DNA from: Actinomycetota bacterium
Lineage (GTDB): Bacteria > Actinomycetota > CADDZG01 > WHSQ01
Direction of reading: 5' to 3'
DNA: 62,153 nt
NCBI GenBank assembly: GCA_009377815.1
Contig: WHTI01000003.1
Location: 1-62,153, forward strand
Shown here: positions 52,997-57,637 of the stretch, piece after piece
How the letters are laid out: each line of letters opens with the position of its first letter
Position numbering within the stretch: position 1 is the first letter of the stretch
Translations under genes and position numbers: made by a program
Notes under the pieces: model-generated
Database searches by the model: none
What the model was told of the DNA's origin: nothing
What the model saw: only the letters and a program-made list of their open reading frames with translations

Positions 52997-54160
52997 CTAG
53001 ACGACGTTCAGTTCCGGGTTGAGATCGCCCCTCAAGAAACGCTCGTAGGCGAACTCGCCAACGTCGACGGTCTCGGGTGCCCCCTTCAGGATCTCCTCGG
53101 CCATGAGCAACCCGCAGATCGGTCCGTGCATGAAACCGTGGCCCGAGAAACCGGCCATGACGTGTACGCCCTTCACCTGCGGGACCTCTCCGAAGATCGG
53201 ATGTGCGTCCGGGGTGATCTCGTAGAGACCGGCCCAATGGGACAGCACGCCCACTTCCTCCAGGAGGGGCAGACGTTCCATCGCCTCGGCCAGGTGGACC
53301 ATCTCCCATTCGGGGTCGACGTCGAGGAGATATCCCCGCCGCTCGTTGGGATTCGACTTCCCGCTCAGCACCCCCGGCCCCTCGGGATGGAAGTACAGCG
53401 CCTCCTTGAGGAACAGGACGAATGGGAAACCGCTCTGGAGCCCCGGTGTCGGTGTGGTTACGACGATCTGGCGGCGGACCGGCTCGATGGGGATATCTAC
53501 TCCCAGCATGCGCCCCAGATCGGGGGTCCATGCGCCGGTCGCCAGCACGACCACCTCGGTGGAGATGTCTCCCACGCTGGTGTGGACGACCGCGACCTTG
53601 TCGCCGGTCGTTTCGAATCCGGTGACCTCGACATCGGAGAGGATCGTTACGCCCGCGGCCCGTGCTCCCTTCGCGTATCCCTGCACCACGCTGTTCGGAT
53701 CGCAGATCCCGTCGTGTTCGTTGAAGCTCCCCGCGATCACTCCCTCGATGTTGACCTGGGGGATCAGTCCGGCCAGGTCTTCGGGCGCCAGCCATTCCGT
53801 GTCGACTCCGAGTTCGTGCTGCAGAGCGACGGCGTCGCGTTGTGAGGGGATGTCGGCGGGATCGGTCATCAGGAACAGGTAGCCGGTGAAGCGAAGACCG
53901 ATGTCCTGACCCGTTTCCTCGGGGAACGCTTCGAGCATCTTGATGCTCTCGATCGAGAGCTTGATGTTGGTCGCCGATGAGAACTGGTGCCGGATGCCTC
54001 CGGCACACTGTCCGGTGGACATCGCGCCCAGGTTGGCTTCCTTCTCGAGGAGAACGACATCGGTCATCCCCATCTTGGCGAGATGGAACGCCGTGCTCGC
54101 ACCCATGACGCCGCCCCCGACGACGACGGCAGCGGCGGTCTTAGTGCCGGAGTCGATCAC
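52997..54160 (-). CDS. FAD-dependent DAO-family oxidoreductase
   Basis: This 387-residue flavoprotein is of the D-amino-acid oxidase/sarcosine-oxidase superfamily. The FAD motif [17 protein letters not shown] opens the Rossmann fold near residues 10-26. The C-terminal FAD/substrate region reads [18 protein letters not shown]. It probably oxidises an N-methyl or D-amino acid. GTG 54160 overlaps the MsrA stop as GTGA, so the two genes form an operon. A longer opening at 54187 would run deep into msrA. Confidence 0.8.
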
Positions 54161-54639
54161 TCCGCGGTCTGCAGGGTCACGGTGCAAGATGCGAGGCCTC
54201 GCTTCTCGAGATACCTCTGGTGGTAGTCCTCGGCCGGATAGAAGTCCGACGCCTCGGTGACCTCGGTGACGATCGGCCGGCTGGAGCGATCCTGCGCCCG
54301 CTCCTTGGAGGCTCGCGCGAGCCGCTCCTGCTCGGGCGAGTGGAAGAAGATCGCCGAGCGGTACTGGGTCCCGACGTCGGGGCCCTGCCGGTTGAGTTGG
54401 GTGGGATCGTGGATCTTCCAGAAGAGGTCGAGAAGCTCGTCGTAGGCGACCACTGCCGGGTCGAACTCGATCTGAACCACCTCAGCGTGCCCGGTGGTGT
54501 CGGTGCAGACCTGCTCGTAGGTCGGGTTCTGGAGGGTGCCTCCGAGGTATCCGACGGTGGACCTCGTCACGCCGTCGATCTTCCGGAAGTCCGCCTCGAC
54601 CCCCCAGAAGCACCCCGCCCCAAAGGTTGCCTTGTCCAT
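54157..54639 (-). CDS. msrA: Peptide-methionine (S)-S-oxide reductase
   Basis: This 160-residue enzyme repairs oxidised methionine using thioredoxin. The active-site motif GAGCFWGVE lies at residues 7-15. Downstream it has [12 protein letters not shown] and a C-terminal resolving Cys in ASCTVTL. The length fits the single-domain MsrA. The gene is first in a two-gene unit with an FAD oxidoreductase. The neighbouring divergent flavin reductase begins 89 bases away. Confidence 0.9.
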
Positions 54640-55353: not shown

Positions 55354-55992
55354 CTAACTGGTGGAGGGGGCGCTCATCCCTGCGGTCACGAATGCGATCG
55401 TCATCTCGAGATTCCTCTCGTCCGGGGCGGACCCCAGGATGGAGAGGGCCGGAAGCGATCTCGACTGATGGAAGATCGCCACGCCGATACAACTCTTGAA
55501 TCGCCACCACAACTCCTCTTCGTCCAGGTGGGGGAGGAGGACGGCGAGATGTTCGATGAACCGCTGCCCGACATCTCCGAACGCGGCGGCGAGCATGTTC
55601 TGGATCCGCGGGTCGGGGTCGCTTATCACCCGGGATAGCAGAAGAAAGACCGTCGGGCCCCTGGCTGCCGAGTCCTGGAGATGCTGGAAGACGGGCTCGA
55701 GGAAGGCTCGGAGCACGGCCTCCACGCTCGGCGCATCAGAGGACGCTTCGAGGGCCTCCAGTCTCTCCAGGCGACTCCGGCTGACCGGCTCTGCGACCCG
55801 ACGTATCACCGCGTCGAGGAGATCCTTCTTGGATCCGAAGTGGTAGTTGACCGCCGCGAGATTTACGCCGGCCGCCTGGGTCACCGCCCGCAGAGAGGTG
55901 GCTTCGTAACCGTTCTCCGCCAGCAGGACTTCGGCGGCGTCGAGGATCCTCTCCTTGGTGTCGGCTGAGGGAACAGTTTCCGGCGGCCTCAT
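55354..55992 (-). CDS. TetR-family transcriptional repressor
   Basis: This 212-residue repressor has a TetR helix-turn-helix at residues about 13-60 (ILDAAEVLLAENGYEATSL then AGVNLAAVNYHFGSKKDLL) and a helical ligand domain. It is divergent from an MFS efflux gene. Three tandem 16-bp operators lie in the 85-base gap, covering promoters of both directions. It probably represses the MFS gene and itself until a drug binds. The ATG has no ribosome binding site, and a GATACT box lies nine bases upstream, so a leaderless message is likely. Confidence 0.9.
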   Translation of the reverse strand: MRPPETVPSADTKERILDAAEVLLAENGYEATSLRAVTQAAGVNLAAVNYHFGSKKDLLDAVIRRVAEPVSRSRLERLEALEASSDAPSVEAVLRAFLEPVFQHLQDSAARGPTVFLLLSRVISDPDPRIQNMLAAAFGDVGQRFIEHLAVLLPHLDEEELWWRFKSCIGVAIFHQSRSLPALSILGSAPDERNLEMTIAFVTAGMSAPSTS

Positions 55993-55996
55993 GTTG

Positions 55997-56024
55997 TTGA
56001 CAGTATCTCATACGTATGTATGAT
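55997..56024 (+). promoter_or_regulatory. Sigma-70-type promoter of the MFS efflux gene
   Basis: TTGACA (55997-56002) and TATGAT (56019-56024) are separated by 16 bases, close to the consensus. The promoter points to the MFS gene, whose GTG start is 54 bases downstream of the -10 box. Operator 1 lies inside it. Confidence 0.75.
56008..56023. promoter_or_regulatory. TetR operator 1
   Basis: TCATACGTATGTATGA is a perfect inverted repeat of TCATAC around GTAT. It covers the spacer and most of the -10 box of the MFS promoter. Confidence 0.7.
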
Positions 56025-56040
56025 TCAAACGTTCGTATGA
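56025..56040. promoter_or_regulatory. TetR operator 2
   Basis: TCAAACGTTCGTATGA repeats the 6-4-6 layout with one mismatch between half-sites. It overlaps the expected transcription start of the MFS gene. Confidence 0.6.
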
Positions 56041-56053
56041 AACACTCGTTTGA
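56038..56053. promoter_or_regulatory. TetR operator 3
   Basis: TGAAACACTCGTTTGA again keeps the 6-4-6 form with one mismatched pair. It overlaps operator 2 by three bases. Confidence 0.55.
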
Positions 56054-56077
56054 GCGGCCTGTTGGAAGGAGTAACGT

Positions 56078-57637
56078 GTGAACCAGGAGCAGATCTACGC
56101 CCGCAGATGGTGGATCCTCGCCATCCTATGTCTCAGCCTCGTCGTCATCGGGCTCGACAACACGATTCTCAACGTCGCGCTCCCGACCCTGGTGCGCGAC
56201 CTCGATGCGAGCGGAAGCCAGCTCCAATGGATCGTCGATTCCTACGTCCTCGTGTTCGCCGGCCTGCTCCTGACCATGGGGGCGCTCGGGGACCGCTTCG
56301 GGCGCAAGCTTGCCCTCAATCTCGGCATGGTCGTGTTCCTCGGCGCCTCGATCGCCTCGGCGTTCGCCTCGTCGGCGGACGTCCTCATCGCCACCCGCGC
56401 GGCGATGGGCATCGGTGGTGCGTTGATCATGCCCTCGACCCTCTCGATCCTTACCAACGTCTTCCCCCCGAAGGAGCGTGGCCAGGCGATCGGGATCTGG
56501 GCCGGCGTCGCCGGACTCGGCATCGTGATCGGTCCGGTGATCGGCGGATATCTCCTCGAGCATTTCTGGTGGGGTTCGGTGTTCCTCATCAACGTCCCCG
56601 TGATCTCGGTCGCGTTGATCGCCGGCTACGTCTTCATCCCCGAATCGAAGGATCCGGTGTTGGCTCGACTCGATCCCGTGGGTGCGCTGCTGTCGATCGG
56701 CGGACTCGGAGCGCTCGTCTACGGGATCATCGAAGCACCGAACCACGGCTGGACCGACGGGGCCACGCTTTCGGCCTTCGCGATCGCAGCGGTGGTCCTC
56801 ACCCTCTTCGTGGCCTGGGAGCTCCGATTCGATCACCCGATGCTGCGCATGGAGTTCTTCGAGAATCCGCGCTTCACGGCTGCCAGTGTCTCCATCACGT
56901 TCGTGTTCTTCGCGATGTTCGGGTCGATCTTCTTGCTCACGCAGTACCTGCAGTTCGTGCTCGATTACTCTCCCCTTGAGGCGGGGATCAGGGTCATGCC
57001 GGTTGCTTCGTTGGTGATCGCGGCTCCCCTGAGCGCCAAAGTAGTGAACAAGGTCGGAAGCAAGTTCACGGTGGCCTCGGGTCTCGCCGTGGTGGCCCTT
57101 TCGCTGTTCATCCTGTCCACGATCTCGGACGCCAGTGGATACGGGACGGTGGCGATCATGCTGATCGGCCTGGGTCTCGGCATGGGCATGACGATGGCGC
57201 CGGCGACCGACTCGATCATGGGATCGCTGCCCCTGTCCAAGTCCGGCGTCGGCTCTGCGATGAACGACACGACCCGGATGGTCGGAGGAGCTCTCGGTGT
57301 GGCCGTGATCGGCAGCGTCCTGTCGTCTGCCTACTCGTCGTCGATGGCGGGCGCGACCGTCGGTCTCCCTCCCGCGGCGGCATCGGCAGCGTCCGATTCG
57401 GTTGGTACCGCTCTGGCGGTCGCCGGCAGGCTTCCGGCAGACGCCGGCTCGGCCCTCGCCGCGACCGCGCGCTCGGCCTTCGTCGATGGAATGGGCAGTG
57501 CGGTGCTTGTGGGGGCAGGGGTTGCCCTCGCCGGTGCGCTGGTGGCGTTGCGCTTCCTGCCGTCCACCGGCCGAGAGGAAGCGGCTCTTCCCCACGACCG
57601 ACCTGAGCCGGTCGAAGCGGCCGAGGTCGGCGTCTAG
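56078..57637 (+). CDS. DHA2-type MFS drug efflux transporter
   Basis: This 519-residue transporter has about 14 helices. The DHA2 (EmrB/QacA-like) signature is VVIGLDNTILNVALPTLVRD near residue 20, with the loop motif GALGDRFGRK. It would pump hydrophobic drugs out using protons. GTG 56078 follows GGAAGGA. TetR control is shown by the operators upstream. Its TAG stop shares the bases CTAG with the convergent cupin gene stop. Confidence 0.9.
   Translation: MNQEQIYARRWWILAILCLSLVVIGLDNTILNVALPTLVRDLDASGSQLQWIVDSYVLVFAGLLLTMGALGDRFGRKLALNLGMVVFLGASIASAFASSADVLIATRAAMGIGGALIMPSTLSILTNVFPPKERGQAIGIWAGVAGLGIVIGPVIGGYLLEHFWWGSVFLINVPVISVALIAGYVFIPESKDPVLARLDPVGALLSIGGLGALVYGIIEAPNHGWTDGATLSAFAIAAVVLTLFVAWELRFDHPMLRMEFFENPRFTAASVSITFVFFAMFGSIFLLTQYLQFVLDYSPLEAGIRVMPVASLVIAAPLSAKVVNKVGSKFTVASGLAVVALSLFILSTISDASGYGTVAIMLIGLGLGMGMTMAPATDSIMGSLPLSKSGVGSAMNDTTRMVGGALGVAVIGSVLSSAYSSSMAGATVGLPPAAASAASDSVGTALAVAGRLPADAGSALAATARSAFVDGMGSAVLVGAGVALAGALVALRFLPSTGREEAALPHDRPEPVEAAEVGV

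Follow-up and report, generated by a model that had tools for sequence, protein, structure and literature searches.

How is an exporter gene of this actinobacterium controlled when it shares a short intergenic region, dense in inverted repeats, with a divergent TetR-type regulator, and what kind of signal might turn it on? The stretch analysed here (the window, 62,153 nucleotides) had been described in an initial annotation as carrying three 16-bp operator-like sites, at 56008, 56025 and 56038, between the divergent TetR and MFS genes. The sites are real, with every letter and coordinate correct, and both flanking reading frames are confirmed. We refine that description in three respects: by sequence, the sites are of the type bound by the fatty-acid-responsive regulator PsrA; the second and third overlap, with their dyads 13 bp apart; and the TetR promoter probably uses another -10 element.

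A PsrA-like regulator and a DHA2-type exporter

The regulator gene (55354-55992, minus strand, with its ATG at 55992) encodes a protein of 212 residues containing the Pfam domains TetR_N (E 1.2e-15) and TetR_C_30 (E 1.2e-19), both above the Pfam cut-offs. Its best NCBIfam model is PsrA (NF053516), but the score of 132.6 bits falls short of the 300 bits required of an equivalog and leaves it outside PsrA sensu stricto. Among PDB structures, 2fbq matches best (E 5.1e-26, against 6.6e-10 for the runner-up); the entry is titled 'probable transcriptional regulator', and we take it to be PA3006/PsrA of P. aeruginosa. PsrA is identified with PA3006 in the literature (PMC10304680). A stretch of the recognition helix, GVNLAAVNYHFGSKK, is identical in the window repressor, in 2fbq and in most gammaproteobacterial relatives, and the C-terminal TetR_C_30 domain is common to the repressor and a Pseudomonadaceae PsrA (L078). 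The proteobacterial PsrA clade (16 rows, 99/99 support) excludes the window repressor, whose nearest relatives share roughly 40-45% identity with it. Judged by its sequence, the regulator is a PsrA-like TetR protein of a broad PsrA-type subfamily and not a PsrA ortholog. Its ligand may differ from that of PsrA, because it scores far below the PsrA cut-off and falls outside the proteobacterial clade.

The divergent gene (56078-57637, plus strand) encodes an MFS protein of 519 residues and begins with GTG, preceded by the ribosome-binding site GGAAGGAG. It is a DHA2-type exporter resembling EmrB, LfrA and QacA: it matches MFS_1 (E 5.9e-55) and passes efflux_EmrB TIGR00711 (282.7 bits against a cut-off of 230.2), which places it among the DHA2 drug:H+ antiporters of the EmrB subfamily, and it stays below the equivalog cut-offs for LfrA (309 of 825 bits) and QacA/B (273 of 900 bits).

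As a minor observation on the same contig, the reading frame of an FAD-dependent oxidoreductase (52997-54187, minus strand), listed from a TTG, overlaps the 3' end of an msrA frame (54157-54639, minus strand) by 31 nt (54157-54187), which may reflect either translational coupling or a later start.

Three PsrA-type sites over two overlapping promoters

The two genes are separated by 85 bp, of 42% GC against 65% for the window, and all three sites lie inside this interval. The near-consensus MFS promoter of the initial annotation holds up: TTGACA (55997-56002) and TATGAT (56019-56024), 16 bp apart on the plus strand (55997-56024), give 11/12 consensus matches and the only such promoter match in 2.8 kb, with a predicted transcription start near 56031. 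On the minus strand, a candidate TetR promoter can be read from the sequence at 56028-56000. Its -35 element, TTGAAT (56028-56023), is the one proposed earlier. The -10 element proposed with it, GATACT (56007-56002), would leave a spacer of 15 bp and is better replaced by TACTGT (56005-56000), which gives a spacer of 17 bp and is probably the true element. TACTGT ends 7 nt before the TetR ATG, no Shine-Dalgarno sequence precedes the gene, and such starts are common in Actinomycetota, for which reasons the TetR transcript is probably leaderless. Leaderless TANNNT promoters are a familiar feature of this phylum, to which the genome is assigned by its six WhiB matches. The two promoters share one 32-bp stretch on opposite strands and so overlap fully.

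The sites, to which no strand is assigned, differ in how their symmetry and their resemblance to PsrA operators are divided. Site 1 (TCATACGTATGTATGA, 56008-56023) has the best dyad, 7/8; site 2 (TCAAACGTTCGTATGA, 56025-56040) has a dyad of 6/8, or 7/9 with one extra flanking pair; and site 3 (TGAAACACTCGTTTGA, 56038-56053) has a dyad of 5/8 and contains, at 56039-56052, an exact match to the PsrA operator GAAAC-N4-GTTTG. The published PsrA operator is C/GAAAC-N2-4-GTTTG/C, and TTCAAAC-N4-GTTTGAA has been footprinted at rpoS (PMC13104628). Successive dyads are 17 bp (sites 1 and 2) and 13 bp (sites 2 and 3) apart, sites 2 and 3 sharing 3 bp.

The placement of the sites bears out the earlier claim that they overlap both divergent promoters. 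Site 1, said to lie between the -35 and -10 of the MFS promoter, indeed fills most of the spacer and also takes in most of the -10 element. Site 2 covers the point where MFS transcription should begin and reaches into the TetR -35, and site 3 falls in the early MFS leader. Together the three sites extend from about -23 to +22 relative to the expected MFS start; at its own promoter, P. putida PsrA works in the stretch from -18 to +20 (PMC13104628).

Dyad symmetry was rejected as a sole criterion. In the 62-kb window, 56 positions reach 7/8 and 2059 reach 5/8, so symmetry alone would not single out site 3, which stands at chance level by that measure. Scoring out of 10 against the published PsrA consensus, which is independent of the window, gives 8, 9 and 10 for sites 1, 2 and 3 (two, one and no mismatches), and they form the sole trio in the window, a trio being three sites of at least 8 each with steps within 25 bp. 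Markov-simulated sequence (6.2 Mb) yielded no comparable trio, and 3.6 Mb simulated at the intergenic GC content yielded four weaker trios and none of equal score. A stricter pattern, TCAWACGNNCGTWTGA, is derived from the window's own sites and hence is not independent; at up to one mismatch it occurs in the 3.6-Mb genome only at site 2 (no mismatch) and site 1. The exact PsrA consensus occurs in that genome at four places, site 3 among them.

Recurrence of the sites beside PsrA-like genes

Sites of this type recur at the promoters of PsrA-like genes. In 84 of 90 psrA-like loci, counting the window, the 260 bp upstream contain one or more sites with a score of 8 or higher, and the 90 loci hold 150 sites against 42 in shuffled sequence. 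Successive sites most often stand 13 bp apart (29 times), followed by 17 bp (9 times) and 21 bp (3 times). When the loci are grouped at 60% protein identity into 32 clusters, 12 of the clusters have sites paired at 13 bp and 5 have sites paired at 17 bp, where shuffles lead one to expect at most 0.02. A lone pair at 13 bp is the pattern of many psrA promoters; the window combines both recurrent steps. Sites grouped in twos or threes, with steps of 13 or 17 bp and in rare cases 21, are seen across Pseudomonadota, Acidobacteriota, Actinomycetota and others.

Among individual relatives, the one that ranked first in the scan of genomes, from the Acidobacteriota (L007), has two sites at 17 bp, and one actinobacterial locus (L090) has three, spaced 21 and 13 bp. 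PsrA-like genes on plasmids of Streptomyces clavifer (L094) and Embleya (L095) carry sites repeated at 17 bp, with a third, weaker copy in each as judged by eye. A further actinobacterial relative (L089) has two sites at 17 bp on a divergent promoter that is likewise TTGACA-N16-TATGAT, and its sequence, TTGACAgtgtaACATACAGGCGTATGATTCAAACAAACGTTTGA, aligns position for position with that of the window, TTGACAgtatcTCATACGTATGTATGATTCAAACGTTCGTATGA. At L088, a locus of the relative G385, two PsrA-like sites with dyads 21 bp apart lie in the stretch 10-60 bases before position 1501, where the match starts, and together form one long inverted repeat, GGTTCAATCATCTGTTTGA ... TCAAACAGATGATTGAACC.

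The pairing of regulator and exporter was not seen to recur in this way. MFS relatives at 58-68% identity are found in several genomes of the same family and class, and by this distribution the exporter looks native to its host. None of these relatives has a close homologue of the repressor beside it; their upstream sequences are different, and where no PsrA-like gene adjoins them they hold no PsrA-type site within two mismatches. The repressor itself, among 100 relatives (15 of the same family), has only one match outside its own genome, a distant one, and across the phylum it is matched in 8 of 396 genomes, its own included. A search for a plasmid-borne or closely related copy returned only matches below 60% identity. 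A conserved PsrA-like/MFS gene pair was considered and rejected, no relative's neighbour having matched the window MFS.

Elsewhere the PsrA-like genes face other genes: in L089 a pair comprising a P450 fragment and a ketopantoate-reductase-like gene, and in L094 and L095 the ketopantoate-reductase-like gene alone. The divergent P450-fragment and ketopantoate-reductase-like (ApbA) arrangement, or ApbA alone, is seen in three actinobacterial relatives, at L098:2743-4434, L094:3061-3930 and L095:3058-3945, which suggests a second class of target for PsrA-like regulators. Since MFS relatives lack the sites and PsrA-like genes elsewhere adjoin other genes, regulator and operator travel together while the target varies. 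It is a fair inference that in the window a resident exporter was recruited by an incoming regulator.

It is tempting to go one step further, with somewhat more doubt than confidence, and propose that the PsrA-like subfamily uses arrays of sites as operators instead of single palindromes, that the fixed steps of 13 and 17 bp in these arrays are conserved across phyla and set how dimers pack side by side, and that here an incoming PsrA-like gene brought its array along and captured a resident exporter of multidrug type, so that export became tied to lipid signals. In the limited literature searched, we found no description of a conserved 13/17-bp spacing of PsrA-type sites. This spacing is the mildly new general point of a system otherwise ordinary in kind. 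It suggests that PsrA-type operators, usually called single palindromes, are commonly multi-dimer arrays, an idea that can be checked on the well-studied Pseudomonas promoters.

A proposed switch and its alternatives

We think it likely that the region works as a local, autoregulated switch, in which a PsrA-like repressor acts on the three sites and the exporter comes on with a hydrophobic inducer. A TetR dimer would bind each site over the two fully overlapping promoters. The dimer at site 1 would cover the MFS spacer and -10, its counterpart at site 2 would lie over the MFS start point and part of the TetR -35, and these two would sterically block RNA polymerase at both promoters; a dimer at site 3 would cover the early MFS leader and lengthen the blocked stretch. 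The repressor would thereby shut off the exporter and limit its own synthesis. Three operators had been suggested to permit graded or cooperative repression, which is plausible, cooperativity because the dyads stand 13 and 17 bp apart, although the multi-dimer TetR operators described so far are differently arranged (PMC4150764). An inducer binding the C-terminal domain would release the repressor and turn on the exporter. By analogy, a lipid-like signal probably activates the exporter, the likeliest being a fatty acid or an acyl derivative (long-chain, going by PsrA homology), or else a toxic lipophilic compound.

The model has precedents. In Tn10, overlapping divergent promoters and two tandem operators control the repressor gene tetR and the MFS exporter gene tetA, a layout like that of the window, from which it differs in operator number, operator sequence and ligand. 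Pseudomonas PsrA (PA3006) shares with the window repressor the TetR_N and TetR_C_30 domains, the identical stretch of recognition helix and a (G/C)AAAC-N4-GTTT(G/C) site over its own promoter. The window protein, in contrast, is actinobacterial and outside the proteobacterial clade, faces a divergent MFS target, has three sites at 17 and 13 bp, and shows nothing that points to an rpoS or fad regulon. Autorepression is documented for PsrA and Smlt2053 alike, as is their release from DNA by long-chain fatty acids (PMC13104628, PMC10304680). Smlt2053 and XAC2014, PsrA orthologs and likewise fatty-acid responsive (PMC10304680), have PsrA-type inverted repeats in their promoters, two being reported (PMC13104628), but they head operons with fadBA-like genes and are not divergent from an exporter (PMC10304680).

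In Staphylococcus aureus, the TetR regulator FarR is divergent from the exporter FarE and the signal is antimicrobial fatty acids (PMC8844917, PMC12671165); FarR is likened here by gene layout and signal, and FarE is an RND-type pump, unlike the MFS exporter of the window. QacR-qacA and CprB resemble the proposed system in placing more than one dimer on an operator region, and the target of QacR is an MFS multidrug exporter belonging to the group of the one described here. However, their two dimers overlap on one site of 22-28 bp (PMC4150764), whereas the window has successive dyads at 13 and 17 bp. Operators of the dimer-of-dimers kind have two dimers overlapping on one 22-32-bp site, and dyads spaced as in the window may or may not amount to such an arrangement. 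Searches of a limited literature for PsrA with tandem operators, for TetR regulators with three operators and an MFS gene, and for actinobacterial PsrA regulons returned nothing direct. The parts are familiar, and for the combination of PsrA-like repressor, triple operator and exporter in this bacterial branch we found no earlier description. An uncharacterised actinobacterial exporter gains from it a named regulator type, an exact predicted operator and a predicted class of inducer.

The inducer is open to another reading. With the same repressor and sites, the signal could be a cation resembling a drug or dye that the MFS protein itself exports, following the logic of QacR or LfrR. The exporter is indeed closest to the LfrA, SmvA, EmrB and QacA multidrug exporter groups and by its family leaves room for drug-like inducers, and the regulator has no more than some 40-45% identity to its nearest relatives. 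Its C-terminal domain, though, belongs to the same Pfam family as that of PsrA, and the characterised PsrA-type regulators answer to long-chain fatty acids; we regard a cationic inducer as possible but doubtful, and the lipid-like signal as the better guess. The number of operators may also be questioned. Only one or two might be genuine, for example sites 2 and 3 as a composite, with site 1 weak or accidental and shaped by the -10 sequence: site 1 scores lowest on the PsrA consensus (8/10), the dyad of site 3 is just 5/8, and a single 13-bp pair suffices at many psrA promoters. Yet site 1 is the best dyad of the three, its 17-bp step to site 2 recurs in L007, L089, L094 and L095, and the superposable promoter of L089 retains a site at the equivalent place, which makes a smaller set of operators unlikely.

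Departing further from the local three-site switch, the sites might bind another TetR regulator, or the repressor might command a larger regulon, for instance one of beta-oxidation like that in Pseudomonas, where PsrA has several targets (PMC13104628). The three further exact consensus matches in the genome would fit this idea, but one falls within thiolase-like coding sequence, another overlaps reading frames where a short contig ends, and the third has an unrelated TetR gene for a neighbour; a wider regulon built on them was rejected on this placement. No second cluster was seen in the genome, and sites of the strict pattern within one mismatch occur only at the region described here; we judge this reading highly improbable. 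The last of the three matches, CAAACGATTGTTTG (L125, G000:C286:24132-24145), is a lone exact site flanked on one side by this TetR gene and on the other by an endonuclease III-like gene, and is probably that TetR protein's own operator.
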